NCBI RefSeq assembly: GCF_964355755.1
Contig: NC_092672.1
Location: 30,376,501-30,440,500, forward strand
Reading direction: 5' to 3'
DNA: 64,000 bases
DNA from: Antedon mediterranea
Taxonomy: Eukaryota > Echinodermata > Crinoidea > Comatulida > Antedonidae
Shown here one piece after another: positions 1 to 61,287 of this stretch; the stretch's first letter is position 1, and each line of letters starts with the position of its first letter. The translations under genes and the position numbers were made by a program. Under the pieces are notes generated by a model. It worked only from the letters and a program-made list of their open reading frames with translations, was not told the DNA's origin and did no database searches.

Positions 1-753
1 GATAACGAAACGTCACTATTCATACTTTTTGCGTCTATTCTTTTATTTTGGTAATGTTTATGTTGTTTATGTTGGCTCTGTGATTCAGATCAACGTAACA
101 TACATTATGAATGTAAAAACAAAGAAGACGAAAATTTGTGAGAGATATTTTTATTCGTGTACGAATTTTGTCGGACTACCTTCCAGCACAAACACACAAT
201 ATCTAAAAGTGAAGCGAGGGAGAAAGATAGAATTAAGTCAAAACCTAAACTATTTTATTATACTACAAATTAACCTTAAATAGTAAGTTCATTTACATTA
301 TTTATTATTATAATTAATTATACACCCTCTAAGTAAAACTACAATGCAATGATGATAAAACGACTGAAAGTTAACAGAGAAATTAAGAATTACACAGTAA
401 TTATGAATTACACATTGCTATAAACGTTGATGTAAATTAATAGTATATTTTTCGGAATGCATAGGCCTGCTTATTTATACAAAATATATACTAATGTAGT
501 TCATATTATACAACATTATTCGCCATCACTACATAAACCTGATAATTGAAAATAAACAACTTCACAGCATTTAAATAAAATGTTTCATTATTAATTAGCG
601 ATTACTCCTTTTGTATTATAATTATTTTATTCATGAGTAATTATTTTTTATTAATAATGTTCAATATGGTTTGAATATAATTGTAGTATTTTATTTAACG
701 ATAAAAGTGTAGGCCTATGTCGTAAGCTTAATAAAGCTTTTTAATCTATATTT
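1..753. other. 3' flank of TRIM copy 1 (part of the duplicated unit)
   Basis: No gene is supported here. The stretch is AT-rich and closely resembles the DNA just downstream of the other TRIM copies (about 9000-10019, 27240-27921 and 48780-49494). Shared landmarks include a block around 510-545 and one around 100-250. It probably includes the 3' UTR of the minus-strand TRIM gene that ends at 754. A TAGGCCTA octamer at 710-717 is absent from the matching position in the paralogous flanks. Confidence 0.6.
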
Positions 754-2913
754 TTAATAATTGAATATTTTCACTGTTTTGTCTCTATTTGCCACTGCTA
801 CTCTACGTGGATTGTGGGATATGATGCATAATCCTCGAGGATCGTTGATTCCATCTTCTGCTTTATCAATCCTTTTAATAAACTTTCCACTATTACTAAA
901 TAGCTGTAGTTTGTGGTGACTTGATATTATGATATTGTCATTATCATCAACTAGTACTCCTCCTGGGCTATTCACCTTGCCATCTTCACCGCCTTCATCA
1001 ACAAGAACTTTAATAAACTTTCCTTCATTATCAAATAGTTTTAAGCAGCTTTGATTAAAGTAAAGTACAAGATTATATCCTTGTCTTGTAAGGGCGACAT
1101 CAATGATACTTACAAAAAAAGAAAAAGACGTATCATATGGTGCTATTTTCTTAATGAGTTTGCCGCTTTCAATGTTAAACATGGCTACATTCTCATCATT
1201 AGCTACATACATGATACGTGATGCTTGATCCACATGGATACCATGTGGACATGTCAACTCATCCTTACCAAATGATTTAACCACTTCACCATTCATAGTG
1301 CATATTGTGATGCATTCATTACCACGATCACTAAATGCTATATTACCAGTGTTCATTGTGAACATTCTGTTGACACGCACACCTGATAGTGTAACCTTAC
1401 CAATGTATTTACCTGATTGCTTGTATTCGCGAATGACATTGTCCCAATATGAAACAAGCAAGCAATCGTCTCCATGTTTAACTACATCACAAACACTAAG
1501 TAACCTGTCCAAGGATATTTGTATGGTTTTTAATAATCCTTCTTTCTCTACCTTAATAGTCATTGGAGACTTCTTAATTGGTTCACCATCAACTCTAACG
1601 TCAACCTTGCAAATTCCTGCACTTTTACATATACCTATCACAGTATAGTCACCATTGACATCCTCTTCTACGTCAGTGATTGTAGTTTCTCCTGTTGGTT
1701 GTGTCAATGTAGCTTTTATGTCATTTAGATGTATTTCACATTCATCAGTTTTGATTATTTTAACATTAATTGTTGGCAATGTCATACTCTCAGCTCCTCT
1801 TAATTCTAAATAGTCCGCCCTTGATTGCGTTACAATTCCAATATCCTTCTGTAATAAATTAATTTGTTGATTGTTTTTAACAAATTTAATCTCAGCATTA
1901 ACATCAGGTTTTGTTTTAGGTACTGCACTGATCCTATCACCCAGTGATGTGATGACGTCATTACCGGATAACATTGCCGTTGCTTCATTGCCCTTCCCTA
2001 GGTGGTGGAGCAAATGGATGTTTGTAGTTATGTACGATATCGTCGTTGTAACATCCTCTATTTCGGCATCAGTCGCCTTCCTTTTGATTTTGTACATAGC
2101 CTCCACCTCACTTTTTAATTTGTCTCCACTTTCTTTAATTCTTGTTACCAATTCCTTGACGTGATTATCAATTCCTCTCAAACTCTTTTCCTTCTTTTCA
2201 TCAAGTTTCTTAACACGACCAGTCATTACTTTAAGATCATCCTTTAATTTATCTGTACATTGTTTTGCCTCTCTCTCCAATCCTGCTGACGTTTGTTTAA
2301 ACGTTTTAAACGCATCTTTTATGCTGATGGTCACGTGTTTGTCTTTTCCCTCCCATTCCTTGTGATCCATGATTGAACAGTGTATACAAATGGCAACTTT
2401 GCATATATTACAAAACACAGTTAAAGGTTCATTGTGGACGGGACAGAGAGGCGGATGCATCGCATTGATTTCACTTACACTCATAGATCGAACATCTTCC
2501 ACTGAATGCAACTTGTGGTTTTTACAAGCTGGAATGTTCTTATGAGCATCACTACAAATATGACACAAATATCGTCTACACTCCTGACAGTAGGTTTTAG
2601 ATCGACCTTCCTTACCACAGATACATTTTGTCTCATCTGTATTTGAAAACTGTTCAATTGTTTCTAACAAATTATTCACAAACGTGTTTGGTAGTAATTT
2701 CTTTAAACCGCCCTCTGGAATCTGATAAGATTTGGAGCAAGTTGGACAGCTTACCTTGATAGTTTTCTTAGACCAGTTGTCAAGACAACTCAGACAGAAG
2801 CTGTGAAGACATGTTAAGGTTCTGGGTTCGTTGAGTCGATTAAAGCATATTTGGCACTCTAGCACCTTCTCATCAATATCTTCTAGAAATTTAGCCAGCT
2901 CACTGGAAGCCAT
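754..2913 (-). CDS. TRIM-NHL E3 ubiquitin ligase-like protein, copy 1 (intact)
   Basis: This is a single uninterrupted coding exon for 719 aa. Domains in order: C3HC4 RING at residues 20-59 (CQIC, CLHSFC, CPTC); first B-box-like zinc site about 97-133; second B-box about 157-193; coiled coil about 205-300; filamin/ABP280-type Ig fold about 380-460; and NHL-like beta-propeller repeats to the C-terminus. Proteins of this layout are typically RING E3 ligases whose propeller binds RNA or protein; the substrate is unknown. The ATG at 2913 is chosen because it is conserved in all copies. An in-frame ATG seven codons upstream spans a 3' splice site (TTTACAG, intron end at 2925), so it is probably intronic. 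It belongs to a seven-copy tandem array and resembles TRIM2/3/56/71-type proteins, but orthology cannot be assigned by eye. Confidence 0.93.
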   Translation of the reverse strand: MASSELAKFLEDIDEKVLECQICFNRLNEPRTLTCLHSFCLSCLDNWSKKTIKVSCPTCSKSYQIPEGGLKKLLPNTFVNNLLETIEQFSNTDETKCICGKEGRSKTYCQECRRYLCHICSDAHKNIPACKNHKLHSVEDVRSMSVSEINAMHPPLCPVHNEPLTVFCNICKVAICIHCSIMDHKEWEGKDKHVTISIKDAFKTFKQTSAGLEREAKQCTDKLKDDLKVMTGRVKKLDEKKEKSLRGIDNHVKELVTRIKESGDKLKSEVEAMYKIKRKATDAEIEDVTTTISYITTNIHLLHHLGKGNEATAMLSGNDVITSLGDRISAVPKTKPDVNAEIKFVKNNQQINLLQKDIGIVTQSRADYLELRGAESMTLPTINVKIIKTDECEIHLNDIKATLTQPTGETTITDVEEDVNGDYTVIGICKSAGICKVDVRVDGEPIKKSPMTIKVEKEGLLKTIQISLDRLLSVCDVVKHGDDCLLVSYWDNVIREYKQSGKYIGKVTLSGVRVNRMFTMNTGNIAFSDRGNECITICTMNGEVVKSFGKDELTCPHGIHVDQASRIMYVANDENVAMFNIESGKLIKKIAPYDTSFSFFVSIIDVALTRQGYNLVLYFNQSCLKLFDNEGKFIKVLVDEGGEDGKVNSPGGVLVDDNDNIIISSHHKLQLFSNSGKFIKRIDKAEDGINDPRGLCIISHNPRRVAVANRDKTVKIFNY

Positions 2914-2924
2914 ATTGGATTGAT

Positions 2925-5900
2925 CTGTAAACAATTAGTAATTTACCTTCAATATGTAAAACAGAATATTGATTCTTTTCTTTTTATTTGAATTGTGTAT
3001 ATTGTGGTAAATTCCCCATTATTACTTTAATAATACAGTGGGATAGACATTGTATATTTTAATATATTTTATTCTATTTTAATTAATTTAAGTAAAAATG
3101 CATTAAGATTCTTTCTGAGAGCTTGAATACGTCTTCAATTTTTAAAATTTATAAATACAGTTAGGAACGTGGATTTGTAAAAATATACGGTAATGAACAT
3201 TCCTAATTCGTAGTTATCACTGAAATAGTCACTAATATTATAGTGATAAATGTTCACTATTTTCGAAAAAAGGTCTGATCTTTGACAGACAGTTTGAGAA
3301 AGACACACTGGTTCTTGTTACGTTGGTGTATAGTATTTCTATTATGCCATCATGATTGGCTTGTTTGGTAAAATAATATGTAGCATTAGAAACGAATAAA
3401 CCATGATATCACACTACTAGCTACAAACGAGTATGATTTACCTCCGTCAAGGAGGTGTACAGTATGTAATCGATCGCGTGTGTTTGTTACTTGGCAAAAC
3501 TTGAAAAATTTATTTTGCCAAGTATAGTATTTACTTTGTTTGTATGTATGTTTGCACGCTAGTGCCTACAGTTTTCAAGTTAAGTCAAGTTCCAAAAAAA
3601 CCCTTGCCTCTTGGACAAAAGAAAAGGGTTATTTTTTTTATCATGTTTAATTTTAAAACATAACCTGATTTAATGTACCAGCTTTTTAATACGATTAGTT
3701 TAAAAAAAAACCTATTTCTTTTAAAATCCACCCGCTTGTTTTTCGCGTTGCTGTTCCATTGTTAGTCAAATGAGACTATTGTTAGTTGTTAATTTTTTTT
3801 TCATTCTGTGCATAGGTATATACTTACTGTCAGAACATGCCTATTGATTTTCAGGAATATTGATATATTGGTCATGTCACAAAAGCTTATCTTCCATCGA
3901 TATATTAAATAGCACACTCTGTATATTTTTATAACATGGACATATTCTTTGACATGGACCAAAATATTAGTCGACTGGCCGAGCGGTTACGCTTACTACA
4001 TGGGTTAAGGCAGGGGCGCCGCAAATCGGCACAGCTTCAACACACTCCTGATCCTCGATCATTATTCTGGTCAATCTTGATTTTAGAAAGGTCATTATTG
4101 CAATGCCGGGATTGTTTGTATTAAACATTATTTAAACAAATTATTAACCCCAGCAGGATTTTAACTATGTAAAGCTAATACATAGGCCTAAACAAATGTA
4201 TCTTTCAACATGCTCCCTATCAGTGGATATATTTTGCCAAGTAGATCACTTCTGAGTGTGCTTTCATTTTTCTGTTAGCAGGATTACTCAAAAAGTAATT
4301 ACAAGATCTTTACCAAAATGAAAATACAGGTAGACATGTGGAAGAACCACTCCATTATATTTTGTCCCAATTCCGTCGAGGTATATGTATAATCGATCAC
4401 GTGTGTTTGTCTGTTTGTTTGTTTGTTAGCAGAATTACTCAAAAAATAATTACCAAAATAGAAATACAGATAGATATGTGGTGAAGACGTACTACTCCAT
4501 TTTGGAGGCAATCCGGACCCAATCCTGGAATGCTTGTTATAGACCGCGCCATCGGGTGAAGAAAAAAAGCCACCGGAAAACACTTTTCGCTCCGACCTCT
4601 GGGAAATAAAAAGTGTTGGCCTAGATCAATCTAATAACATGTTCTATTAATATGAACAGTTTGACAAAAATATCGTATCATACGCACTTTACCTCGATTA
4701 AACTGTATCGCTAGGCCGCAATATCATGAACATCTCATCGATGTATACAGACAGAAAGCGTGGCAAAGTACAGTGTCAGTTGTACGTTGTTACGTCGCGA
4801 CAATTCAAGTCAAACCGCGTCAGTACAAGTTAAATCGCGTCATTTGAAGTAAAATGTTGATATTTACTTATCTCGATACATTATTTTTTTTATTCATTGA
4901 ATGTCACAATCAATGTAATAAAAAGCAAAATGTATTTGATTACAGTTTAAACAGAAATAAATGCTAATAAATAAATAATACTAAATAATAAGTAATATTA
5001 GATGTTAAATTAAAGGAAACAGCATGAAACATAAACAATCTTGATATAGTATATTTTGAAACATTTATTTTTTTCTTGCATTGGCTGACTTCATACAGAG
5101 GCAGATTAGTTACCATTTGGTATAAATAAAGACTAGCCATTTGACATTTACTGTATTTATGTTATACTGTACCATATTTGGTACAGTATATTAATAGTTA
5201 TTTATATATAAGTAATAGTTATATAAAGTATTTTATTCAACTGAGTAATAATTTGATGAATCAATAACATTTTGAAAAGGTCATGGGTCAACACGAGTAA
5301 AAAGGAATTGAAACTACGGACATTTAAATGTAATTTTCTCTTTATAGGTCACGTTTTTTATGTCAAACTTTGTGTTATTACTTATAAAATATTATTAAAT
5401 TAATTACTATAAAATGTTTTCTTATTACCCAAACATCGGAACGGGATTGAACGATAGGATTTTCACCCGATGGCCTATTAGCATTATTTTCAAACCTGAC
5501 AGAATGTTCAAAGGCCGGCGAGCACTAAAGAAACAAGTAAACTGAAATTGCATTTTCTCAATAACTTTGTCCAAAAAACTTCATTTGTGTACAAGAGGCA
5601 AGAGTTATAGTTTGTGATTTGTAATTTTAAAACATAATTTGATTTAACTTACAGGTGTTTTGATACGAGTAGTTTAAAAAAACAATACTTCTTTTCAAAT
5701 TCACCCGTTTGTTTTTGGCGTTGCTGTTCTAATGTTAGTCAATTGAAACTATTGTTACATAACCATTACACCAAATTCACATACACATGGTTGCAGTGAA
5801 ATTAGCCTAAATCACACACAGCAGCATTTTGTTTCTGGTGAAATCTTATATAGGAGAATGCTATAGTAGGCGGAGGTATGCACTCTCGGAGTGTCGTTCT

Positions 5901-6465: not shown

Positions 6466-6660
6466 GTTTTTGTGTGTCAATTGATTAGTCTTTGATTTTG
6501 TAGACTGGCACAAATGCTCTCATATGTAAGTTGAAACAAAATGGTTCCGATATGAATTACTAATGTCCTTTGACGTTTTATTATAGCATATTGATTCGTC
6601 TATATACTGTAGTCTATTAACAGAATGTTTCCGAGCGGAAACGTTAAGAATCATATAGAC
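6466..6660 (-). promoter_or_regulatory. Untranslated first exon and promoter-proximal region of TRIM copy 1
   Basis: The exon edge at 6466 is followed on the minus strand by GTAAGTTAG. The region is nearly identical to 12945-13140 (copy 2) and recognisably similar to 26364-26560 (copy 3). It holds the 16-bp palindromic motif GTTTCCGAGCGGAAAC at 6627-6642, which is kept exactly in copy 2. No TATA box is obvious. The upper boundary is approximate. Confidence 0.45.
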
Positions 6661-7099
6661 CTACGAAAGACACCACAATGATTATAATAAAGGGTTAATC
6701 AGTTATGTTTACCCTACTCTCAAAGAGGGCTCATACTATGACTTTGTTTTTCTGTAGGTTTAATATGTTTAAAGTATTAACATAATAAACTACCACAATA
6801 AACACATATTCCAAAGAAATGACAATATCGTACTTGTTATAATTTGTAAGTATAATAACTACGATTAAATGCAGAATAATCCTCATGTACAGTAACGTGA
6901 AATCACGTTGTAGACTTGTGACGTTTTTTGATATGTATTCTCTGTTCTTGTTTGGTTATTGTATTTTTGGTATGTGGACGTAAATTATTAAACAGTGTGC
7001 ATGATTTTTGAAACTTGGTAATTTTTCGGAAAACTGAAATGCATTTTGTGTCATCGTTTTTTGCTAAATTCAATTCAAGCATATCGCAATGATTTACGA

Positions 7100-7919: not shown

Positions 7920-10019
7920 AAATATCTGGTGATACCTTAATGAATCATTTAACAATAACAACCACATCAATTATCTCAATATTCGGAAGTTTCTATAAAT
8001 ATTCTTTCAAATATTCAGAATGCACAATTTTTCGAATTGTTTACTGCGCGTTTACAAGAGCCTAATCTCCTTACCTAACAATGGTACCGATTTCTCTTAT
8101 TGTACGGAAGAAATCCGATAATATATGTATTGGTTGTTCTATTCATGTCACCGGGGAGTTTTAAATCCCATTCCTCCATTATTCATCAACATGTTTGTAT
8201 TTATTTAAATCAATTGGATCACCGTTCAATGTATGTAAACAAATTAACTGGACTTAAGAACAAATAAAAAAGAAAAGTTAGTTTTACATCCCTTTTTTAT
8301 CTATTATTGTGGAGCCGAAATAATGTTATTTTTAGTTATTTTTTCATAAATAAAAAACCGTGTTTATTCGAGTAAACAACCCGCTTTGAATAAACGCCTT
8401 CCTCGAATAAACTCCGCCATAGAACAGCTCCTTGGGCCTTTATTTATTTCCTCGAATAAACAACCCGTCACATGCATACTATATACATTTCTATTTGTAA
8501 CACTTCATTGATTGACATTTTGATACCATTTTTACTGTATATTATCACTTTTTGATATTAAATGTGTTACCATATTACAACCAAAAAAATAAATGCATCC
8601 CCCGAATAAACGAAAACGAGCGTTTATTCGAATAATCGTTCAAATTATTGTATGATCTCGAGTGTGTTCCGAGGTATGTAAACGTTAATTAAACATTTTT
8701 TACCGTATATAAAATAATCGGGAATAAAACTGGAATAATCGTGTATTCAATGCCATGACCGTGATCTTTAAGTGTTCCAATGTGTGTAAACGTTAAATGA
8801 ACATTTTAAACTAACCGTAATGCAAATATTTTTTTTTTTTTGGCCTAACGTTTACTATGTAACATAAAGAAAGAATTATAATCTTAAGTAATCTTAACAA
8901 ATTATTATAATGTAGGCTACTGAAACATCTAAATAATGTTTACATTGTTGATGTACTTTTATATAAACATTGTGATTCGGATCAACGTAAAATATACATA
9001 TAATATGAATGACGACAATTTATGAGAGAGATTTTATTTTTGTATGAAAACCAACACACAGTATCTAAAACTGAAGTAATGGAGAAAATTAAGTGAAAAC
9101 CTGACCTATTTTATTTTTTTTCTCTTTTGTGGCGTTAACCACTAATTTTATTCATTTCATTTTCAAATGATCAATAAAATGATTTTATACATCTTCCTAA
9201 TTTATATTATTCTAAAGTTGTTTTTACCAATTATTTTCTTATATTTTCTCCTATTTTTTTATACGATTTGATAAAAAATAATTCGATCACTATAGTATGT
9301 TCGTAAAAGTTCTATATAGTTATATGTCTCGCATTATCCATCTTTTTTCATAATTTTCATTTATTTTGCTACTTGCTCTACATCTAAAACTTAAATATTT
9401 AAATGTACTAAAAAAAACAGTTTCTATTTCAATGTATCTTAATTATTTTTCACAGTTTCCTTGTTTTATATTTATCCCTATTTTATTGTACCCACAAATT
9501 AACCTTAAATAGTAAGTTCATTTAAATAATGTATTATCAATTAATGATAGGTCCTTATTCCTAATAAAAAAATAAAATAAAACTACAATGCAATGATGAT
9601 AAATGACGGGAAGGTACCTAAAGTAATTATGAATTACAAAGTAATTATGAATTACACAGTAATTATGAATTACACATTGCTATAAACGTTAATGTATTTT
9701 AATAGTATATTTTTACAGAATGCATAGGCCTTTTTATTTATAAAACATATATACTAATGCAGTTAATATTATACAGCATTATTCGCCATCACTGCATAAA
9801 CCTGATAATTGAATATAAACAGTTTCACAGCATTCAAATAAAATTTTGTATTATTAAATAGCGATTACGCCTTTTTTCTATATTTATTTTGTTCACACGT
9901 TATTCTTTTTTATTAATAATTGATAATGTTCACTATGATTTGAATATGATTTTAGTGTTTTAATTAACCATAAAAGTGTATGTCGTAAGCTTACTGAAGC
10001 GTAGCTTATTAATCATTAT
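7920..10019. repeat. 3' flank of TRIM copy 2, part of the duplicated unit
   Basis: The stretch 7920-9020 parallels 48120-48840, and part of it parallels 30350-30500. The stretch 9480-10019 parallels the 3' flanks of copies 1, 4 and 6. Within it, 8350-8640 is rich in TTTATTCGA/TCGAATAAA inverted pairs, which suggests an old foldback insertion; this also occurs at 48540-48670. About 9110-9480 is AT-rich and specific to this copy. No gene is supported. Confidence 0.6.
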
Positions 10020-12156
10020 TTAATAATTGAATATTTTCACTGTTTTGTCTCCATTTACCACTGCTACTCTACGTGGATTGTGTGATATGATGCATAATCC
10101 ATATGTAATGCTGATTCCATCTTCTTTTTTATCAATTCTTTTAATAAACTTTCCACTTTTACTAAAAAGCTGTAGTTTGTGGTCACTTGATATTATGATG
10201 TTGTCATTATCATCAACTACTACTCTTTTTGGGTACATCACCTTACCATCTTCATCGCCCTCATCGACAAGAACTTTAATACCTTCATTATCAAATAGTT
10301 TTAAGCAGCTTTGGTCACAGTAAAGTATAAGAATATATCCTTGTATGTGAGATCAATGATATTTACATATTGAAAGCCAGTAGTATCACATATTCTCTTA
10401 ATTAGTTTGCCACTTTCAATGTTAAACATGGCTACACATCCATATTTAGCTACATACATTACACGTGATGCTTCATCCACATGAATACCATGATGATTTG
10501 TCAACTGTCCCTTACCAAATGATTTAACCACCTTACCATTCATAGTGCATAATGTGATGCATTTATTTCCACGATCACTGAATGCTATGTTACCATTGTT
10601 CATTAACAACATTCTGTAGACACTCACACCTTCTGATAGTGTAACCTTACCGATGTATTTACCTGTTTGCTTATATTTGTAAACACCATTGTCCAAACAT
10701 GAAACAAGCAAGCAATCGTCTCCATATTTAACTACATCATAAACATCTTTATCTATTTTGATATTGTTTAATAATCCTTTTTTCTCTACCATAATAGTCA
10801 TTGGTGACTTCTTAATATGTTCACCATTAACTCTAACATCAACCTTGCAAATCCATGCACTTGTACATATACCTATCACAGTATAGTCACCATTGTCATC
10901 TTCTTTTACTTCAGTGATGATAGTTTCTCCCGTTGGTTGTGTCAATGTAGCTTTTAAGTCATTTGCATGTATTTCACATTCGTCAGTTTTATTATTTTAA
11001 CAGGAATTGGTTGACCAGTTGTCATACTCTCAGCTCCTCTCAATTCCAAACAGTCTGCTGCCCTCAACGTTGTAATCATTCAAATGTCATTCTGAAATGA
11101 AGCCATTTTTTGATGGTTTCTCACAAAGTTAATCTCAGCATTAAAATCATGTTTTGTTTTAGGTACTGCCTTGATTCTATCATCCAGTGCTGTGATGACG
11201 TCATTACCGGATAACATTGCCGTTGCTTCATTGCCCTTCCCTAGGTGGTGGAGCAAATTGATATTTGTATTTATATACGATATCGTCTTTGTCACATCCT
11301 CTATATCGGCATCAGTTGTCTTCCTCTTGATTTTGTATATTGCCTCCACCTCACTTTTTAATTTGTCCTCACTTTCTTTTATTCTTGTTACCAATTCCAT
11401 CACGTGATTTTCAATTCCTCTCAAACTCTTTTCTCTGTTTTCATCTAGTTTCTTAACACAATCAGTCATTACTTTAAGATCATCCTTTAATTTAGCTGTA
11501 CATCTTTTTGCCTCTCTTTCCAATCCTGCTGACGTCTGTTTAAACGTTTTAAACACATCTTTTATGCTGATGGTCAAGTGTTTGTCTTTTCCTTCCCATT
11601 CCTTGTGATCCATGATCGAACAGTGTATACAAATGGCAACATTGCATATTTTACAAAACACAGTTAAAGGTTCATTGTGGACAGAACACAGAGGCGGGTG
11701 CATGGCATTGATTTCATTTACACTCATAGATCGAACATCTTCCACTGAATGCAACTTGTGGTTTTTACAAGCTGGAATATTCTTATGAGCATCATTACAA
11801 ATGTGACACAAATATCTTCTGCACTCCCGACAGTAGGTTTTAGATCGACCTTCCTTACCACAAATATATTTTGTCTCATCTGTATTTGAAAACTGTTAAA
11901 CTGTTTCTAACAAATTATTTAGAAACGTGTTTGGTGGTAATTTCCTTAGACCGCCCTCTGGAATCTGATAAGATTTTGAGCAAGTTGGACAGCTTACTTT
12001 GTTAGTTTTCTTCAACCAGTTGTCAAGACAACGCAGACAAAAGCTGTGAAGACATGTTAAGGTTCTGGGTTCGTTGAGTCGATTAAAGCATATTTGGCAC
12101 TCTAGAACCTTCTCATCAATATCTTCTAGAAATTTAGCCAGGTCACTGGTAGCCAT
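10020..12156 (-). pseudogene. TRIM-NHL pseudogene, copy 2
   Basis: It is full-length in layout (RING, B-boxes, coiled coil, filamin, NHL) but disabled several times. Seen against the paralogues: GAA to TAA nonsense between RING and B-box 1 (near 11897); a Cys-to-Tyr change in the first B-box (CICGKEG becomes YICGKEG); GGA to TGA after the coiled coil (near 11080); a 1-nt deletion near 10990 in the filamin part; and a deletion of about 7 nt near 10345 in the propeller. The ATG at 12156 and the splice acceptor (TTCATAG, ending at 12168) are still present. It is a relic of an originally functional gene. Confidence 0.93.
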
Positions 12157-20104: not shown

Positions 20105-20528
20105 AAGCCCTGGATGAATAGGGTGGTGAAAGACCTTAAATATCTTAAAACGATAAAAATGTTTTGCTAATGAGGGAAAGTCTAATCAATGGAAACTCTA
20201 TCGAAACCGTGTCCAACTTGAAATTAATCGTGCAAAGTCTAGCTTCTAGGCCTATAATGAAAGATTTAAAAGCCTCAAATCAACAAACCCAGTGAAATGG
20301 CATCACGGTATCCAGCTTATGGCTAATAAACTAAAAAACCCACCTATTATTCAAATACCCAACATTGCCCCTAACAATGATCTTGCTATAGCTCAATATA
20401 TCAATTTTTCTTTCTCCAAGGTCTCGCAAAGTAAGAAACCTTTGGTGCGTGATAGTCTTCCAAGTTTCTTACCAGCTGAAAATCCACCCCAACTGGAGGA
20501 ATGGGAAATGTTCTACCACTTAAAAAAA

Positions 20529-34411: not shown

Positions 34412-34714
34412 CTTAGATTAATCTGTGAACAAGTAATTATTTATATTCGATAGTATATACATTTATATTATATATTTTCTTTTAATAATGTAATTGTGTT
34501 ATTATAGTAATGATTATACTAAGATTATAATCGTTTATTGTTCATTGCTTAAATAAAAAAAAAACCTTAATTTGAAAGAAAAACAATACAGTTCATGATT
34601 TTTTCAAATTAAAACGTTTCTTTTCTTGTAAATAAACAATCATTATGGTTAACAATGTGTTATGGCGAAAAACTACCTATTATTATAGAGACAGATCCAA
34701 TTGCTCTGATATTA

Positions 34715-36939: not shown

Positions 36940-37242
36940 CTTAGATTAATCTGTGAACAAGTAATTATTTATATTCGATAGTATATACATTTATATTATA
37001 TATTTTCTTTTAATAATGTAATTGTGTTATTATAGTAATGATTATACTAAGATTATAATCGTTTATTGTTCATTGCTTAAATTAAAAAAAAACCTTAATT
37101 TGAAAGAAAAACAATACAGTTCATGATTTTTTCAAATTAAAACGTTTCTTTTCTTGTAAATAAACAATCATTATGGTTAACAATGTGTTATGGCGAAAAA
37201 CTACCTATTATTATAGAGACAGATCCAATTGCTCTGATATTA

Positions 37243-39303: not shown

Positions 39304-39833
39304 TTTAAATTTGTATATGGCGGATAAAGAGTATTAGTCGGGTTTGTGGTACACCTTGTGTTGTATATGGCGGATAAACAGTATAGTCGGGTTTGTGGTA
39401 GGCCTACACCTTGTGTTTTATATGGCGGATAAAACAGTATAGTTGGGTTTGTGGTACACATTGTGTTGTATATGGCGGATAAACAGTATAGTCGGGTTTG
39501 TGGTACACCTTGTGTTGTATATGACGGATAAACAGTATAGTCGGGTTTGTGGTAGGCCTACACCTTGTGTTTTATATGGCGGATAAAACAGTATAGTTGG
39601 GTTTGTGGTACACATTGTGTTGTATATGGCGGATAAACAGTATAGTCGGGTTTGTGGTACACCTTGTGTTGTATATGACGGATAAACAGTATAGTCGGGT
39701 TTGTGGTAGGCCTACACCTTGTGTTTTATATGGCGGATAAAACAGTATGGTTGGGTTTGTGGTACACATTGTGTTGTATATGGCGGATAAACAGTATAGT
39801 CAGGTTTGTGGTACACCCTGTGTTCCAAAAAGG
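39304..39833. repeat. Minisatellite with higher-order structure (49/50/55-bp units, 154-bp period)
   Basis: The basic unit contains TATATGGCGGATAAACAG, TATAGTCGGGTTTGTGGTA and CACCTTGTGTT. Three unit types (50, 49 and 55 bp) alternate in order, giving a 154-bp higher-order repeat. The 55-bp type differs from the others by an extra GGCCTA at GGTA/CACC (TAGGCCTA at 39399, 39553 and 39707). Confidence 0.92.
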
Positions 39834-43600: not shown

Positions 43601-45682
43601 TAAAAGAAAATATATTAGCAATGATAGTTGTGTATGTACATTACATTTCGCTTTAAGTTTGAGCAATCTAGTTTAGTGGGCGAGAAGTCTACAGTATGTT
43701 AAAAGTTTTGTCTTAAACCTCTAGTCTAGCTTGCCTTCATCATGTGAAACTTCAAGGTATAGTAACATTAACAGTGCTATGACGAAGTCAATTTATGTTT
43801 TAGTTTACTTTAGTTGATCTACCGTTGATCGAAAAAAAAGATATACACTGTTACTTTTTTATAAAGAAAGATTTGATAAAGGCAGTTGAGTGTAAATACC
43901 TGGAGAACCAGATGCCCAAGTGGCATCGCACAAAAACCACTTATTTGATATCTTGACGCGATTCCACGCATGTCTATGTTTTTCTCCATTCACGAAGTCA
44001 TCGCCAATTCTGTATGAACCTCCTTTTGCTATGCCTGAAATTTTCTCACAAGGTAGATCACACAATCTAAAATTAGAAATAGATTTATGTTGTTTAAAAC
44101 GGATCAAGAATATTACATTTTCTCAATCCGATATTAGACGTGATGATGATGATTTTTTTGAGCCACTGTTTTTATTCTTTTTTCAAGAAATGAAATGAAC
44201 TAAATAGTTCTTGGTTTATATATGTAGGCTTACTATGTACTGCTTATGTAGGTTTATAGAAAATTAGTATTAAAGATACTATTGTTTATATTTTTAGATT
44301 ATTTTGAAGGATACCAATTTCTTTATTTTTTGTTTTTCATGTTTTTAACACAACCAAAAGAAATGTTCAAATAGTTTTTTCTGAATGTTTTTCTTACCGA
44401 CACATTTCGAAGACTAGATTTGAAAATCCCGCGCAGACACCAGTGCCTTCGTTTAGCACGTCCTGGGGATCCGATGAGCCGCGTTGACCGGTTGCCAGGA
44501 AGTTAACGTCATACTTTATATTGGTAGCTACCCATCGTATTATAACGCGCGCCTTATCATAGTCGCCTGATGTTGGCTTCATCAAATAGTCCACTAAACC
44601 TTTAATGTTACGTTTCATTGAGTTTGGAGCCTGAAAAAAGCACGTAACATCACATTCAGTGCACATAAAGAAGCCAAACGAATTCATTATAAACGAAGAA
44701 GAATTTTAGTTAAAGAATTGTAGGCATATAGGCGACAAAATCATCACCCTAAAGCAGTAAAGTCATTGTAAACGGGGTAAAGAATGGATTTTGATCTTAT
44801 TTAAACAATTGTATACCCTAACGAACTAATTTGTATGTTAATGTTTGGAAAATTACAGTAGACCTAAAATATAAAAAAATCCTTAAGTTTAATGTTTAGA
44901 GACTGATTTATTAAACTATCGAGTAAAATACAAGTTGAATCACATAAGTTACTGCTAGATCAGGCTGAGCATGAGGAGATGACTTAATAAAAACATCACC
45001 GATAATCAAGAGGGTGTGATTTTTATTCTTGTTTTTGCAAAAACAGTAAATAAAAAAGGAAAAAAGAAAAAGCAGCAAAGGCACAAAAGGGAACTAAATC
45101 AAGTCAAGTCAAGTCAAGTTAAATTAGAAAAAAAGGATCAAAAGTTAATACTTCACGAATTTAGCGATTAGTGTTTTGATATCAACACGTAGGCCTATAG
45201 GACTTCTATGAATGTGAACTACCTACCTTTTCCACATGTTGATCAAGACGATTCGTGGTATCAAAGCCAGGATAGATGGCTTTATGTTCGGGTGTAAAGA
45301 AATGATGTAGATCATACTTGCAGGTCACATTTGAAGGGTTAGGTCTTGGAAAGGCTTGGCAGGCTTCACTATAAAGTGTTAGCTGACCACTATTTCTCGA
45401 GTTTTCTTCATCTTCGTCGTTACCAATGTTATGCTTATCTCGAATATGAAGCGATGACTTCACTACACTCTTCGATATGGGTCGTATATTATTTCTTCCG
45501 TCATCTGTGTCATCAACATCTTCAATTTTAGAACCACTATCAGAAGTAAGCCTAGATTCAATTACATCCTTTTCTATTTTACCCGTTATCTTGTTTTCTA
45601 TAATAGGCCTATCCGGAATATGAGGCGATATTGATTTCACTACACTCGGCGTAGTCCTATTTTTAGAAGACCCACACCCCAT
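40689..45682 (-). CDS. Kyphoscoliosis peptidase-like (transglutaminase-like) protein, five coding exons
   Basis: Coding exons, minus strand: 45682-45227, 44630-44398, 44066-43900, 43594-43407 and 42455-40689. Phases agree at every junction and give 936 aa. The N-terminus MGCGSSKN is a good N-myristoylation signal, followed by a charged, low-complexity region to about 152. The transglutaminase-like core has Cys218 (GTGVCAGFSN), His262 (RHAWNRV) and Asp277 (FLCDATWASG), i.e. a complete Cys-His-Asp triad. The long C-terminal half holds several repeated modules marked by NWGP, AWGP and PWGP. KY and hillarin relatives act in muscle or cytoskeletal integrity as protease or scaffold; whether this one cleaves is unknown. 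The final exon is unusually large (588 codons). Fragments of it are scattered beside other TRIM copies. Confidence 0.9.
43219..43329 (-). pseudogene. 5S rRNA-like sequence in KY intron
   Basis: On the minus strand it reads TACCACGTTGAAACACCGG, TTCTCGTCCGATCACCGATG, TTGGATGGGAGACC and GGGAATATCGGGTGCTGTA, which are clear 5S rRNA segments. About 7 nt (AGTACTT in normal 5S) are missing between GGCCTGGTT and GGATGGG, and the 5' end is altered, so it is a pseudogene or the head of a 5S-derived SINE. It lies in the intron between coding exons 4 and 5, on the KY strand. Confidence 0.85.
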
Positions 45683-45709: not shown

Positions 45710-46651
45710 CTGAAAAGAATAATAATAATAATAATTATTATTATTATTATTATTAGAAGTTATTTCATTAGTTTACAACATAGAATTACTAACTCTGGTA
45801 AACCGAAGGCATTGCCGCAGAAACTACCTTATTATTTTTAAGGCAGAAGTTCGCAGCGAATTCAATAAATAAATAGGAGAAATGATTCTGTTATTTCATT
45901 ATAATACACTTATCGAAGATCGCAAAAGTTCATAAAAACTAACTCCAAAAGCAGTGTAATAAGATTGTGTTTATGTAGTGCATCTTGTGTATATGTTTGT
46001 CTTGTGGACAGGATTGCCACCCTTTAAAGATGTATTGTCCCAAAAAACATGAAAAATGAAGATTGATTAAATCAGACTTTATGTTATTTTGTAGTTTTAA
46101 TAAAGTGAATCACTTCCGTTGAAAAAAAACCGGAAAAAATATGTTTTCACTTATAAAATAACATGATAAATGGTTAGATTCAACCAAAAATCCATTGGAT
46201 GGCAGCAAATTTGACCATTTTTTGCTTTACATTTTTTTTTCGATCCAATTTTTGGTCAAAGTCAATAACTATTATGTGACTTTAAAATGGAATATTCAAC
46301 AACAAAAAATGTAAAAATGTATTTTTCAGGGGGGCAATACATCTTTAAGGATAGTGAATGGATTCGATTATGGCGGTTATGCTTTGCAATTTACCTAAAT
46401 ATTAAAAACAAAGCAAAACAAAACTACTCTGTATAATATATCTTTCACAAGGGGCTCATATACTTCGTTTGAAGTTTTACATAGGCCTACAATGAAATCA
46501 GTTTAACTATCTGGTTTAACTAGTAAAGTGTGTCAATCGACAATCGTACTGTAGCACTTGAATATCTGGTGTACAAACACCAAATCAAAATAAGTTTAAG
46601 ACTATTGCCTATAACTATGTAATACAATGATTTGCTCAAAATGATACTTAC
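45710..46651 (-). other. 5'-UTR intron of the KY-like gene
   Basis: The donor GTAAGTATC begins at 46651 and the acceptor TTCTTTTCAG ends at 45710, 27 nt before the ATG. The acceptor is preceded by an (AAT)n/(ATT)n microsatellite (45718-45756). The intron contains a MITE (46024-46348). Confidence 0.65.
46024..46348. mobile_element. TTAA-flanked MITE, copy 1
   Basis: Inverted ends AGATGTATTGTCCC and GGGGGCAATACATCT are bordered by TTAA on both sides (46024-46027 and 46345-46348), the target duplication typical of piggyBac-type elements. About 320 bp with no ORF. A diverged copy in opposite orientation is at 61288-61575. Confidence 0.75.
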
Positions 46652-48119: not shown

Positions 48120-49494
48120 TTGGGAGAGACCTTACTGAGTCATTTAACAATAACGAACACATCAATTATCTCAATATTCGGTCAAATATTCAGAATGCCA
48201 AAGAGAATTGTTTTATTTTTTTCCTGCGCGTTTACAAGAACCTAATCTCCATATTTAGCATTGGTACCGGTGGTCTCTTATTGTACGGAAGAAATCCGAT
48301 AACAGAGGTAGTGGTTGTTCTATTCATGTCGAGGAGTTTTAAATCTCATTCCTCAATTATTCATCAACATTTTTGTATTTATTTATATCAATTGGTTCAA
48401 ACATTCAATATATATCGACTTTGGTGTAAACAAATTACTGTAACTGGAAATTAGAAAAGTTAGTTTTACGTCCACTTCTTTTATATAATATTGTTGGAGC
48501 CAACATAATATTATTTTTAGCTATTTTTTCATAAATAAAATATACCTTGTTTATTCCAGTAAACGGCCCGCGTTAAATAAACGCCTTCCTCGAATAAACT
48601 CTCCATTAAACAGCATTTTGAATAAACTACTCGGGCCTTTATTTATTTCCTAGAATAAACACACATGCATATTATATACATTTCTATTTTAGTAGAATTC
48701 ATTGATTGACAAAATAATACTGTATACTGTTTACAAATCATTTCGATACAATTTTTACTCTATATTATCACTTTTCGATATTAAATGTGTTATGTTGGCT
48801 CTACACATGTGATTCAAATAAGCGTAAAATATAAATTATGAATGTTAAAACAAAAAAGACGAACATTTGTGAGAGATATTTTTATTCGTGTACAAATTTT
48901 ATCGGACTACCTTCCAACACAAACACACAATATCTAAAACTGAAGCAATTTAGAACAAATAATAAGTTTTACTTAAAATTAAATCACAACCAAAATTATT
49001 TTATTGTACCACAAATTAACCTTAAAAATTAAGTTCATTTACATTACTTATTTTTATAATTAATTATAGACCCCCTATTTCTAATAAAAATAAAGTAAAA
49101 CTACAATGCAATGATGATAAAAGACTGAAAGTTACATAGGGAAATTAAGAATTACACAGTAATTATGAATTACACATTTATTGCAGAATGCATAGGCCTG
49201 CTTATTTATACAAAATAGATACTAATGCAGTTAATATTATACAGCATTATTCGCCATCACTACATAAACCTGATAATTGAAAAAAAACAACAGTTTCACA
49301 GCATTCAAATAAAATGTTGCATTATTAAATAGCGATTACGACTTTTTTATTATAATTATATTTGTTTTCACAAGTTGTTATTTTTAATTAATAATTAATA
49401 ATGTTCACTATGGTTTGAATATGATTTTAGTGTTTTATTTAACCATAAAAGTGTATGTCGTAAGCTTAATGAAGCTAAGCTTATTAATGATTAT
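48120..49494. repeat. 3' flank of TRIM copy 6, duplicated unit
   Basis: It parallels 7920-10019 and, from 48780 on, also 1-753 and 27240-27921. It probably contains the 3' UTR. A 64-codon open frame at 48838-49032 is broken in the paralogous flanks and is not taken as a gene. Confidence 0.6.
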
Positions 49495-51666
49495 TTAATA
49501 ATTGAATATTTTCACTGTTTCGTCTCCATTATTTGCCACTGCTACTCTACGTGGATTGTGAGATATGATGCATAATCCTTGAGGATAGTTGATTCCATCG
49601 TCTGCTTTATCAATCCTTTTAATGAACTTTCCACTATTACTAAATAGCTGTAGTTTATGCCTACTTGATATTATGATGTTGTCATTATCATCAACTACTA
49701 CTCCTTCTGGGTACTTCACCTTACCATCTCCACGACCCTTATTCACAAGAACTTTAATAAACGTTCCTTCATTGTCAAATAGTTTTAAGCAGCTTTGGTT
49801 AAAGTAAAGTACAAAAATGTTTCCTTGTCTTGTAAGGGTGACATCACTGATGATAGCAATTGAAAACTCGGGAGGCCTATTACATAGTGCTATTTTCTTA
49901 ATCAGTTTTTCACTTTCAATATTAAACATGGCTACATTATCGTGATTAGCTACATACATGCCACGTGATGCTTCATCTACATGAATACCACGTGCATTTG
50001 TCAACTCTCCCTTACCAAATGATTTAACCACCTCACCATTCAAAGTGCATACTGTGATGCATTTGTTACCACGATCATTGAATGCTATATTACCATTGTT
50101 CATTAGGAACATGCTGTAGACACGCACACCTTCTGATAGTGTAACCTTACCAATGTATTTACCTGATTCTTTGTATTTGTAAATGCCGTTGTCGAAACAT
50201 GAAACAAGCAAGCAATCGTCTCCATATTTAACTACATCATAAACATATTTATCTATTTTCATAGTGTTTAATAATCCTTCTTTCTCTACTTTAATAGTCA
50301 TTGGTGACTTCTTAATGTGTTCACCGTCAACTCTAACATCAACCTTGCAAATCCCTGCATCTGTAAGCCTACATCTACCTATCAGAGTAAAGTCACCATT
50401 GTCATCTTCTTTTACTTCAGGGATAATAGTTTTTCCTGTTGGTTGTGTCAATGTAGCTTTTAAGTCATTTGCATGTATTTTACGTTCATCAGTTTTTATT
50501 ATTTTAACATCAATTGTTGGCAATGTCATACTCTCAGCTCCTCTTAATTCTAAATAGTCTGCTGCCCTCTGTGTTTTAACCATTCCAATATCCTTCTTCA
50601 ATGAAGCGATTTGTTGATTGTTTTTCACAAAGTTAATCTCAGCATTAACATCAGGTTTTGTTTTAGGTATTGCCTTGATCCTATCGTCCAGTGCTGTGAT
50701 GACGTCATTACCGGATAATATTGCCGTTGCTTCATTGCCCTTCCCTAGGTGTTGAAGCAAATTGGTGTTTGTATTTATATACGATATCGTCGTTGTAACA
50801 TCCTCTATATCGGCATCAGTCGCCTTTCTCTTGATTTTGTACATAGTCTCCACCTCACTTTTTAACTTGTCTTCACTTTCTTTTATTCTTCTGACCAAAT
50901 CCTTGACGTGATTTTCAATTCCTCTCAAACTATTTTCTCTGTTTTCATCTAGTTTCTTAACACGATCAGTCATTACTTTAAGATCATCATTTAATTTAGT
51001 TGTACATATTTTTGCCTCTCTCTCTAATCCTGTTGATGTTTGTTTAAACGTTTTAAACGCATCTTTTATGCTGATGGTCACGTGTTTGTCTTTTCCCTCC
51101 CATTCCTTGTGATCCATGATTGAACAGTGTATACAAATGGCAAGTTTACATATTTTACAAAACACAGTTAAAGGTTCATTGTGGACAGAACACAGAGGCG
51201 GATGCATGGCATTGATTTCATTTACACTCATAGATCGAACATCTTCCACTGAATGCAACTTGTGATTTTTGCAAGCTCGAATGTTCTTATGATGGTCACT
51301 ACATTCTTTGCACAAATATTGTCTGCAATCCTGACAGTAGGTTTTACCTTGACCTTCCTTTCCACAAATACAATTTATCTGATCTGTATTTGAAAAATGT
51401 TCAATTGTTTCTAACAAATTATTCAGAAACGTATTGGGTGGTAATTTCTTTAGACCTCCCTCTGGAATCTGATAAGATTTGGAGCAAATTGGACAGCTTA
51501 CTTTGTTAGTTTTCTTCAACCAGTTGTCAAGACAACTCAGACAGAAGCTGTGAAGACATGTTAAGGTTCTGGGTTCGGTGAGTCGATTAAAGCATATTTG
51601 GCACTCTAGAACCTTCTCATCAACATCTTCCAGAAATTTGGCCAAATCACCGCCGCCGCTAGCCAT
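49495..51666 (-). CDS. TRIM-NHL E3 ubiquitin ligase-like protein, copy 6 (intact)
   Basis: A single 723-aa coding exon. The N-terminus MASGGGDLAKFLEDVDEK differs from other copies (MA(S/T)SEL). RING C3HC4 (CQIC, CLHSFC, CPIC), B-box 1 (CICGKEGQGKTYCQDC), B-box 2 (CSVHNEPLTVFCKIC, CIHCSIMDHKEW), coiled coil, filamin domain and NHL propeller are all complete. The filamin domain carries two extra residues (GRCRLTDAGIC against GRCTSAGIC elsewhere), caused by a 6-bp insertion that creates TAAGCCTA at 50364-50371. The ATG at 51666 follows the acceptor TTCACAG (ending at 51679) by 12 nt. Upstream sequence differs from the other TRIM copies and resembles the KY promoter region. Confidence 0.93.
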   Translation of the reverse strand: MASGGGDLAKFLEDVDEKVLECQICFNRLTEPRTLTCLHSFCLSCLDNWLKKTNKVSCPICSKSYQIPEGGLKKLPPNTFLNNLLETIEHFSNTDQINCICGKEGQGKTYCQDCRQYLCKECSDHHKNIRACKNHKLHSVEDVRSMSVNEINAMHPPLCSVHNEPLTVFCKICKLAICIHCSIMDHKEWEGKDKHVTISIKDAFKTFKQTSTGLEREAKICTTKLNDDLKVMTDRVKKLDENRENSLRGIENHVKDLVRRIKESEDKLKSEVETMYKIKRKATDADIEDVTTTISYINTNTNLLQHLGKGNEATAILSGNDVITALDDRIKAIPKTKPDVNAEINFVKNNQQIASLKKDIGMVKTQRAADYLELRGAESMTLPTIDVKIIKTDERKIHANDLKATLTQPTGKTIIPEVKEDDNGDFTLIGRCRLTDAGICKVDVRVDGEHIKKSPMTIKVEKEGLLNTMKIDKYVYDVVKYGDDCLLVSCFDNGIYKYKESGKYIGKVTLSEGVRVYSMFLMNNGNIAFNDRGNKCITVCTLNGEVVKSFGKGELTNARGIHVDEASRGMYVANHDNVAMFNIESEKLIKKIALCNRPPEFSIAIISDVTLTRQGNIFVLYFNQSCLKLFDNEGTFIKVLVNKGRGDGKVKYPEGVVVDDNDNIIISSRHKLQLFSNSGKFIKRIDKADDGINYPQGLCIISHNPRRVAVANNGDETVKIFNY

Positions 51667-54291: not shown

Positions 54292-57200
54292 CTACCCACA
54301 ATCATCTGTAACTTTGTCGTTGAAAATGTTTGTACCACAGTCATTCTGAAAGAAATACAGTAACCTGTTATTACCGTGGTAGGATAGTTTGGTTAAAGAC
54401 CAAACATCTTGAATCTGACTGACGTAACGTAAATCCATAATAAACACATTGTTTAGGTATAGCCTTTTCACATGCAGGCCTACTGGGTAGATTAGAAAAG
54501 GTCACACTTGATTTTCTTGAATTTCATTTAATAATTTCTTTCCATTACTTGTAGTCTGGAGATAGATGTTCAGTGACTTTTGCCGTGGTGTGTAGTCATT
54601 ATTTGTTTGGTGGAAAATGTATAAACTCTATAAGAATTCTCTAAACAAAAATGTGTTCTGTCTCTGTTTTTCATGTGGAGAAATCGTACTATTTTTATCT
54701 TTTCAAAGCACATTGAGACTTCGGTACAATACGCTGTGTCAACATAAACACATTACGTTGACACAAAGTAGTAACTAGGACGTATAGTGATTAGTATTGT
54801 CCATGTAAAGTGGAGTGAACTCTAGTCTATGGATTACTTTAATGATACATAAATGCAATGTTTACGTTTGTTGTAGCTAAATGTAGTTATATATACATTC
54901 TAATAAATCCAATATGTTTAAAGATTAGTTGTAAGTAAGCTATATTAATAAACTCGTTATTTAAATTAGAGACAGCAGACAGTCAAAACAGCACCTTGTT
55001 ATCTGTACTGTATCTCTAACATTATATGTCAAGTATGATAAACACATTAGTGTAATGTAGTGTCACATGATCATACATCACGTGCGACGCCTGTATAATG
55101 TGAACGTTATGGCTAAGTTAGGCTTCTGGACTAGGGATTTTGATACAGGCGTAACATATGATATATATGAGACATTGTATCACATAAATTGGCATGATAC
55201 TGTACAGATTTTAAATGCAATTTGGAAATCGGCTAAAACGTGTTAAATCAATATACTGTAGTCTGTATGACATTTAACGCTGGTATAAATAAAAATGTAT
55301 CACTGTAAATTTCAATATTAGGCCTACTGTAACTAAATCTGCATCAAACCTGGGAAAAGTCACTACTCTTCCCTGATCAAACACTTTACCTGGTTATAGC
55401 AGTCTCTATCAGCTTCAAAATCTGGTTCACTACCATTCTCAAATCGAACATAACGTCGCATTTGTAATCGCCATTCAGTTCTAAAACAAAGAATAGATTA
55501 GATAACATAAAACAAAAATAGATATATTTATACAGCCATTAAACACATAAACGAGTGAAATAGTACATACAAAAAATAAAGTAGTAATAGACAGTTACCT
55601 TTGTCTGTTGCAAATCACCAACCCAATAATATAGACTAAAAGAACGACCACGAATGATACTGTTATCCACACGGCTACGTAGCTGATAGTTTTGTTCCTC
55701 GATATTAGTACGTTTGTATTCCTCATTGTCTGTTCATTTCTATTTTCTAGTAAAAAGAAGATTTGAGATTATTTGGTGGATTCAAACAAACAAATTCGAC
55801 TATATACAGCTTGTATACACATTGGGCATTAGTTTTTATTTATATTAAATATCATAGGTATCTCTTTGTATTCACTCTAAGTCGAGTATGGCTGAGTTCT
55901 ATTATAATCTTTAGCCTGTAAAAAGGAAACAGAAATGGGTACTTTTTCTGGTTAACCTTTTCGCTACCAAGATGGTTTTCCCAAAGAGCCAGTGCTTTGG
56001 ATATAACATAAATTGAAAATTGTAAACATATCAAAAAGATATCTCTAAGATAGAATATAATATGGTATGTATTATCTAATGAAAAAAGATAAATGAATTT
56101 ATTTAGATATTTCTTCATTGCGATATAATTGTTATATTATTGATGAAATAGTGTTACTTGCATCAAAAGAAGATTTGTTTTAATGAAATGAATTACTATT
56201 TTGGGGTGTTTTTTTTGCTAGGCCTAGTTTTATTTCCTTCTTTATTTTATATAATAGAATTTAAGAGAGCCCTTGAATACCAACATACATTTTGTGTCCT
56301 CAATGGGTTATCAAAAAATTAAAAAATATATTTTTTTTCTCTAAATTAGTTAAAACCTACATTACATTTAACAATATTTAATACTATGATTTATAATAAG
56401 CTGTAATAACATTACCACTAATTCTAGTTTTATCATTATTAATTCCAGCAGTTTTGCTTTTGGTGTCATATATGTGTTGCTGTATCGTACTTTCAGGTTG
56501 TGTTGTTGCTCTGTCAGTTAAAAGTGTTTCCATTGTATTTATAACTTGTAATGTCCTTTCCGTAACTAAACTCATATTTTTCGTACCAACAGAATCGCCA
56601 TTTTGGGAAACCATTGCTTTGTCTGCATAGTCGGGCATTGTAGAAACACTTTTGTTGGTCAACTCTTGAAAATGTTCTGAAATAGCTGTTTTTGCGGTAT
56701 CTAATGTACTCAAAGATTTTGGTCGAACACTTGTTGACTCGGTATCACGTGATTCTGTCCAATTTTCAGTTATAGTCTGCTCAACGATAGATGGCGTAAT
56801 GGTTGACAGATAAGTTTCATTTGTGAATAATTGTACATTTTTTGTAGCTGTTGACAGAAAAGTTTCATTCGTGAGTGTAGATTGTTGTATATTTTCTGTA
56901 GTCTTTTCATAGATATGATCTATTCCAGTGTAATTTTGTATAGCTGTTGACATATAAGTTTCATTCGTGAGTGTAGGTTGTTGTACATTTTCTGTATTAT
57001 TTCCATGGATACGATCTATTCCAGCGTAATTGTTTGTAGCTGTTGACATATAAGTCTCATTCGTGAGTGTAGGTTGTTGTACATTTTTTGTATTATTTCC
57101 ATGGATACGATCTATTCCAGTGTAATTGTTTGTAGCTGTTGACATATAAGTTTCATTCGTGAGTGTAGGTTGTTGTACATTTTCTGTAGTATTTCCATGG

Positions 57201-59359: not shown

Positions 59360-60078
59360 GGCTGTTGGAATAACATAAGAAAGACAATTACAATAACTAT
59401 ACAGACTAATTCTTGAATGTATCTAAGACCAAAAAAATGGTTGTAGACTTCCGTAAATCACTTAATGTCAAATATCCATTGTTTATTAATGGTATATCAG
59501 TTGAGTTTGGAGAAGAATTTAAATTCTTAGGTATTTATATTTCAAATGATCTGAAGTGGCATATTAACACACGTAACATTATTAGAAAGACCCAAAGAAG
59601 AATCTACTTCCTGCGTAGACTTAGGGCATTTGGTATAAACTCTGAAATAATGTCCTTCTATAGGTCAGTTATAGAGAGTGTCATAACGTATTTTTTAACG
59701 ATATGGTTCGGTAGCGCTACCGAAAATGAAAAGCGTGACCTAAATAGTTAGTTAAGACCGCATCGCGTATAATTGGATCTGCACAATTTCCTTTGGAGAA
59801 CATTTTTTCAGATTGTCTTCTAAAAAAGGCAGTGGCTATCAAAGATGATCAATTTTATCTGGCCTCTAGTATGTTCCACTTAATGCGCAGCAGAAAGTAG
59901 TTTCTTTCCAGGAGCTATTAGAGCCTTAAACATCATGTAGACACTTTTTGTAATGTTTTTGTTTTTTAGTTCGTGTTGTGTCCGTTGGATATTGTGCTCC
60001 CCCCACAGAGCAAAGAGAATTTCAATGTTTTTTTCCCTAAAACAAATGACAATAAATGATACTTGACTTGACTTGACT
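59360..60078 (+). mobile_element. 5'-truncated LINE (Rex/Babar or L2-like) 3' portion
   Basis: The frame 59413-59751 reads LNVSKTKKMVVDFRKS, FKFLGIYISNDLKWH, QRRIYFLRRLRAFGI and SFYRSVIESVITYFL, which is the post-RT region of non-LTR ORF2. Decayed continuation: SRIIGSAQFPLENIFSDCL. The 3' end is GACAATAAATGATA followed by CTTGA repeats. Confidence 0.8.
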
Positions 60079-61287
60079 AATTAAATAAATCTATAATAAT
60101 AAAAGAAATTTGTATTTTAAAATTCTATACTTATACATTAACTTGCGTGTGCCACGCGAGAACGAGCACTTTTATATATAAAATATCACTCAGTGAATGT
60201 TTGTTTGAGAATTTGTCACTTGAATTCCCCTCGAAAAGTAGAACAATCATGGCGAAAATTGCACTGCAATTCTAGTCATATTTTGTCCGTAACTTAGACC
60301 TACATAATGACAGGTTTATTCGACTTTGAGTGTTAAATTATGTTCTGTTAAATGAACTTGAAGATTTCTGAAAGCTATCTCAGCGACTAGAATAGAATTC
60401 AATTTACAGCAACAATGTGGTGCGTTAATCTAACTATACAAACACATACGTCGATGACTTCGAACTCCTTGAATAGATACACGTTTCTACTGCAAAGGTG
60501 ATTGACTGTAATTATACAGTGTTTATTGATTGTCAAGAAATAATTAATTTTATTCTACACTAAGGCGACGGCCTAAGTCAGCTGAAAGCCACTGTGGTTT
60601 GTTTAGAATACTAAGTTAACACGCATATATGATATAGGCCTACAAGATACAAGAAACTGTATTTGTCTTCGTAAAAAACAAAGACAATGTCAGTTTTCGG
60701 TTGTCAGCAAACCCGATACACCCCAATGGAAAGAAAGTGGAAGTTTTGTGGGGATTTTTGGTCAAACTCTAAGCTATTAAACCTATATTGACTTTTTCTA
60801 TCACCTCAGAATTTTTTGAATTTCTCCTATTTTGTGTATTTTTTTTATTCCACTTTCAATATATTTTAATACATTACCAATCTGTTTTTAAAACTATAGG
60901 CCTACTATATTATTTTTGCATAACAAGATTTTATAATCTTTCATTTCATGATTTTCAATTTATTGAATTTATATAAAATGTTAACTCCCATTTCCTGTGC
61001 ATCACTTGTTACAGTAATCAAATGGGCCAAATAATAAATGTTCAATATGGGCTGGTGTACTAAGATAAACACTAAAATGTTTTTTTTTAAATACATGCGT
61101 TATTAAAAGTATCGTCACATTTTGATGATTTCATGCAGCTAGAGCTGAATACGTTATCGCTAGCCACCGATAATCTTATCTATGCCAATCTTATATGTAT
61201 GTAAATAAAATCAATTCAGCTTGTTATAAGTATATTTAGTCTGTCTGGTGCACACAAGTTAAATTTCGTTAATTGTACAACTCAAAC
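60079..61287. other. AT-rich intergenic, nothing recognised
   Basis: Two TAGGCCTA octamers (60635-60642 and 60897-60904) are the only notable signals. A stretch near 60100-60240 looks repetitive in style but no second copy is in the window. Confidence 0.35.

Follow-up and report, generated by a model that had tools for sequence, protein, structure and literature searches.

The 64,000-nucleotide (nt) stretch of the crinoid Antedon mediterranea analysed here (contig NC_092672.1, positions 30,376,501 to 30,440,500; the window) contains repeated copies of an octamer, TAGGCCTA, which arises by the gain of six bases, always the same, at a TA dinucleotide. The insertion process is real, it is unusual in both scale and uniformity, and it extends well beyond the window. 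It is probable, in our judgement, that TAGGCCTA is the scar left by excision of a cut-and-paste transposon that targets TA and has ends beginning with GG, and probably with GGCC. A full-text literature search found no description of the motif.

Fourteen octamers are present in the window against 0.35 expected under a first-order model, and each lies where an earlier examination of the letters alone (the sequence-only reading) had placed it, with an expectation of less than one. Because those at 39399-39406, 39553-39560 and 39707-39714 represent one ancestral insertion, at the first of these positions, that was amplified with the tandem unit of a minisatellite, there are about 12 independent sites (coordinates here and below carry no strand). 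In every pair of empty and filled copies that can be aligned cleanly the difference is exactly GGCCTA, or its equivalent in another phase, a gain of 6 bp. The octamer at 710-717 differs in this way from paralogous stretches at 49295-49611 and 9824-10133, which keep plain TA at 49454-49455 and 9979-9980. The same 6-bp difference separates 29979-29986 from copies with plain TA at 34420-34603 and 36948-37131, and filled from empty minisatellite units, all as had been claimed. The insertion proposed at 20247-20254, inside the coding sequence of a long interspersed nuclear element (LINE), is supported by plain TA in each of four other copies in the genome. Two suggested variants in TRIM paralogues also proved real: TAAGCCTA at 50364-50371 is a 6-bp insertion of AGCC with TA duplication, which adds two codons and is absent from five paralogues, while TAGCCTA at 28895-28901, the GCC variant, is a 5-bp TA-duplicating insertion relative to its paralogues and shifts the frame. 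The other eight of the 14 sites have no informative paralogue in the window. A search of the window found no paralogue for 4183-4190, 45190-45197, 46482-46489, 55319-55326, 56219-56226, 60635-60642 or 60897-60904, and for 45604-45611 only a short partial repeat at 45430-45470, with TATGCTTA at the site.

Repeat families in the genome sample behave in the same manner. The filled copy at L004:987 has eight empty counterparts and that at L038:1450 has 31; L034:1185 is matched by 24 copies without the insert, with one substitution adjoining, and L040:2275 by three counterparts that are 6 bp shorter. Alignment of paralogues thus supports a precise change between TA and TAGGCCTA in the window and in genomic families alike. 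Across families the ratios of empty to filled copies are 31:1, 24:1, 8:1, 4:1 and 2:1. Since a single filled copy is set against many empty ones, gain is the only economical reading, as had been proposed, its polarity being judged from repeat copies in place of outgroups.

The assembly as a whole (354 Mb in 18 contigs) contains 128,871 copies of TAGGCCTA. The reversed word has 1,589 copies but contains CpG and so gives only a weak control; an order-2 Markov model was therefore applied to random 10-kb stretches together with the window (188.7 kb, satellites and arrays masked). In this sample 85 octamers were observed against 2.2 expected, a 39-fold excess in keeping with the predicted genome-wide abundance. 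Other words of the form TA-N4-TA lie far below TAGGCCTA, the next being simple AT repeats or its own one-step decay products, and when GGCC is placed between identical dinucleotides (NN-GGCC-NN) only TA gives enrichment. Word enrichment and exact paralogue gaps both point to a TA target duplicated around a remnant, as in a Tc1/mariner footprint. The flanks of 129 distinct sites are unrelated and close to background in composition; beside the scar TAs there is a mild preference for G/C and a depletion of A. Long satellite stretches of the genome sample contain no TAGGCCTA.

When paralogue gaps of 3-6 bp that duplicate a TA are sorted into classes, GGCC and CAG come out on top. The CAG word, TACAGTA/TACTGTA (TACWGTA), outnumbers TAGGCCTA, with 314,802 copies genome-wide, some of them in arrays, and exceeds expectation 3.4-fold in masked DNA. 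It is seen as a 5-bp TA-duplicating insertion in paralogue alignments, for example at L045 and at 3458-3464 of the window, where the paralogue near 24700 reads TATA. The footprint published for Sleeping Beauty and Frog Prince is C(A/T)GTA (PMC3878927), which makes TACWGTA a scar of the Sleeping Beauty type. A further class, TAGGCTA/TAGCCTA, has 95,779 copies genome-wide and is about 2.5-fold over expectation in masked DNA. Of 53 GGC/GCC scars in the first 160 kb of contig C1, 30 lie within 50 bp of TAGGCCTA (1.9 in shifted controls), whereas only 6 of 72 TACWGTA words do so (2.6 expected); likewise GGC/GCC was the top TA-spaced word near TAGGCCTA in an unbiased sample, and CAG fell outside the enriched set. 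Because co-location is strong in the one case and barely present in the other, we conclude that GGCC and GGC/GCC share one agent and CAG has another. The enrichment of TAGGCTA/TAGCCTA and its co-location with TAGGCCTA represent the heterogeneity typical of end joining. In the most enriched GC-containing TA-N3-TA words of the masked sample (CAG, GGC and CCG) the first and last bases of the triplet are complementary, which is what pairing of 3-nt overhangs before ligation would give. The TAGGCCTA sites themselves are clustered, with 28 gaps of less than 300 bp against 10.8 simulated. Three islands (L011:8758-9116, L001:1500-1730 and L004:1500-1630) consist of near-continuous TA with GGCC, GCC, GGC, GC or C units, as if repeatedly hit.

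Excision could have produced these scars as follows. An element would insert at a TA, which is duplicated, and when cut out would leave a few terminal nucleotides on each flank. End joining would then seal TA-GGCC-TA, giving the net addition of GGCCTA at one TA that the alignments display directly; the loss of one nucleotide, as a minor route, would give the TAGGCTA or TAGCCTA found beside the octamers. Scars would be inherited, building up roughly with divergence and decaying through point mutation, both of which are apparent in repeat families and mutated neighbours. New insertions may prefer TAs beside G/C and may recur at hot spots, among them TAs that belong to earlier scars, which could explain the observed clustering and the scar islands. 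TACAGTA/TACTGTA in the same genome would be the work of another element, Tc1/pogo-like and with CAG ends. Such a scheme accounts for the duplicated TA, the symmetry of the core, the variants short by one nucleotide, inheritance and decay, and coexistence with a canonical footprint. Excision is favoured as the best mechanism because the second TA scar is the documented Sleeping Beauty footprint and because the minor GGC/GCC variants adjoin GGCC.

As the product is uniform and two GG overhangs are unable to pair, GGCC may itself be a self-complementary overhang of 4 nt, able to anneal again, and not a pair of GG overhangs that lack complementarity. This leads to a more specific proposal, which we put forward tentatively and regard as possible rather than probable: a TA-targeting transposon, low in copy number and steadily jumping, leaves via 4-nt self-complementary GGCC overhangs by a chemistry between those of Tc1/mariner and piggyBac, and all of its departures are sealed into TAGGCCTA, giving more than 100,000 scars. 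Even an element of low copy number could leave numerous scars, one with every move, and at steady copy number the scar count would be that of moves, not of copies.

It is also conceivable, though rather unlikely, that no transposon was ever present and that a host process breaks DNA at TA and repairs it with a fixed filler, GGCC or CAG. Such direct micro-insertion would suit the single, strikingly uniform product, the clustering at hot spots and the failure to find a source element in about 280 kb. However, no polymerase or nuclease is known to add a fixed GGCC at TA, and transposon excision predicts what is found: a duplicated TA, a CAG scar that matches a documented footprint exactly (PMC3878927) and variants with GGC or GCC. 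Much less credible again is a selected palindrome, either a protein-binding site or an iterated motif like HIP1, made by point mutation and retained. The octamer is indeed palindromic, very abundant and locally clustered, but it originates by a 6-bp insertion and not by substitution, it occurs in LINE coding sequence, a minisatellite and young transposable element copies, and its one-off neighbours indicate decay.

Two further explanations have very little to recommend them. If the octamer were the seed of a hexanucleotide microsatellite, (GGCCTA)n, spread by replication slippage, tandem units would be expected, and the double unit TAGGCCTAGGCCTA does occur 3,605 times genome-wide, about three times the expectation from independent insertions, along with some longer arrays. 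Set against 128,871 octamers, however, these do not describe a slippage-grown array, about 97% of sites being single; slippage could not give rise to an initial unit within TA sites that are unrelated, and private insertions at TAs without a pre-existing unit contradict it. We consider it equally improbable that the octamer was copied along with one abundant repeat family, as its conserved end or as some fragment of it. Several copies of a pogo-type family do have TAGGCCTA at their 3' side, and the minisatellite amplified one site, but the flanks of the distinct sites are unrelated and the exact 6-bp difference recurs inside many unrelated families. This reading is therefore contradicted in general and true only for amplified copies.

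Several observations weigh against the preferred explanation, excision of a GG-ended transposon. A search for inverted repeats flanked by TA found no TA-duplicated element of the form TAGG...CCTA in about 280 kb, a result that excludes only families of several thousand copies. Matches to the Tc1-type domain DDE_3 come to only eight in the genome, and the mariner Transposase_1 domain was not detected there in a search made without a positive control. Known Tc1/mariner footprints vary far more than this scar does, and TA-spaced GG, CC or GC alone (including TAGGTA and TACCTA) shows no genome-wide enrichment. The claim of Tc1/mariner-type excision made in the sequence-only reading is partly supported. 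It withstood every refuting test set there that could be run, namely those of the genomic excess, the exact events at TA and gain as opposed to loss, and the Sleeping Beauty-type second scar and the GGC/GCC variants are in its favour; the GG...CC element with TA duplications that it postulated was not demonstrated, so excision is a likely inference. The remnant between the TAs is 4 nt and symmetrical (GG/CC), its derivation from the two ends of a source element being putative.

Candidates for that element were examined and rejected. Of the inverted-repeat hits beginning with GG, L006:6629-9566 is an internal part of a longer inverted repeat whose flanks both continue ATGCTG, L013:3830-7158 is likewise internal, and the remainder are tandem arrays or pairs of TAGGCCTA. 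The 16-mer TAGGCATTTCGTGTTA has 102 matches with at most one mismatch, but its TA is internal. A telomere fusion involving TTAGG was dropped as the flanking bases have no T/A bias. Words beginning with TAGGCC, other than TAGGCCTA, did not recur between loci, which makes a large family with such ends unlikely.

Besides the DDE_3 matches the genome contains 47 of the pogo-type domain DDE_1, three of them in long open frames that score almost alike, and none of the matches to either domain was shown to have TAGG...CCTA ends. One recently active pogo-type family (L058/L059) has near-identical copies at C1:22457502, C11:22016935 and C7:24065651 as well as many shorter relatives of roughly 285 bp; two of the three show no difference in the 800 bp that follow the DDE_1 domain save for a 3-base indel. 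The C11 copy has TAGGCCTA at the end of the stretch read on its 3' side. A search with this stretch gave 41 matches, mostly shorter copies, some of which run through TAGGC while others stop exactly at the preceding TA. The octamer could be an element terminus here, although an internal scar inherited by a subfamily seems likelier; identity between copies runs to the end of the stretch read. An intact Tc1-like transposase gene of 340 amino acids with a DDE_3 domain occurs at L055 (C5:13043350-13045050), its nearest solved structure being Sleeping Beauty 5cr4. Its stop is followed closely by a perfect histone-type stem-loop, GGCTCTTTTCAGAGCC, and a convergent stretch downstream has the same stem-loop; no inverted repeats were found within 1.2-1.3 kb, and at C4:12822067 there is a 96% copy interrupted by stops.

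Other repeats were noted in passing. A composite repeat of about 2 kb at L021-L050 (for example L021:1486-3459) starts near GTATCCGGATATTCA, carries arrays of a GGACAACTACCCCC-like unit and has at least 40 copies with a core only about 1% diverged. Large inverted repeats occupy 17487-20104 and 20563-22693 of the window, the arms being nearly identical in sampled words. A probable family of miniature inverted-repeat transposable elements of about 320-350 bp, with ends TA-AAGATGTATTGTCCC, is found at 46025-46347 of the window, L005:3205-3554 and L012:4894-5217, with several copies in 280 kb. The word TGACGTCA is 22-fold over a Markov model, with a large share in satellite stretches L007 and L018, and also occurs 11 times in the window.

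Some indication of timing comes from a young transposon family of 24 copies, about 1% from consensus with a mean pairwise divergence of 2.2% and 110 TAs in its core consensus. All three of its private non-tandem insertions are TA scars, two of them TAGGCCTA and one TACTGTA. With two private gains in a family only about 1% diverged, the process that forms TAGGCCTA is recent. The rate is two events per about 2,600 TAs per 1% divergence and, as 0.44% of TAs in sampled DNA are filled, this implies accumulation worth about 6% divergence. Independently, words one substitution away from TAGGCCTA are in excess by 0.61 per intact site, which puts the mean age of scars at most at about 7% divergence. 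The two estimates agree, but as the agreement depends on two events it is suggestive only.

The activity of cut-and-paste elements is usually gauged from their surviving copies. If the octamers are scars, the genome holds a countable record of departures that far exceeds the visible Tc1-type stock, and rate, age, hot spots and target choice could be read from one assembly. The scars create frame shifts and stop codons, as in the LINE at 20247 and the TRIM copies at 28895 and 50364, and serve as dense, precise presence/absence markers. The uniform GGCC raises a concrete question about the chemistry of excision.

Comparison with known systems helps to define what is distinctive here. The HIP1 iterated palindromes of cyanobacteria are also very abundant palindromic octamers, whereas TAGGCCTA is made by insertion at TA, free of surrounding sequence. 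The target of piggyBac is TTAA, and its self-complementary TTAA overhangs re-anneal so that excision is scarless; a self-complementary 4-nt overhang would account for one uniform product, but here the target is TA and GGCC stays behind. PIF/Harbinger elements duplicate TWA, unlike the two-base TA duplication with a variable flanking base found here. ISL2EU (PHIS) elements have a 2-bp target duplication and inverted repeats that usually begin with GG (PMC4482050), both points of likeness, although their duplication is AT within A-AT-T and not TA with G/C favoured and A depleted beside it. Transposases of the Tc1/mariner type cut two or three nucleotides in from the ends of the element, leaving 3' overhangs of 2-3 nt that are sealed by end joining (PMC3878927, PMC7827188), with documented footprints of 2-4 bp (PMC3878927, PMC7827188, PMC7913693). 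The scars described here resemble those of Sleeping Beauty and Frog Prince in the duplicated TA, the few end nucleotides between the TAs and the rare one-nucleotide variants; they differ in a source element that is putative, in a 4-nt core of GGCC, in extreme uniformity and in a copy number above 100,000 within a single genome.

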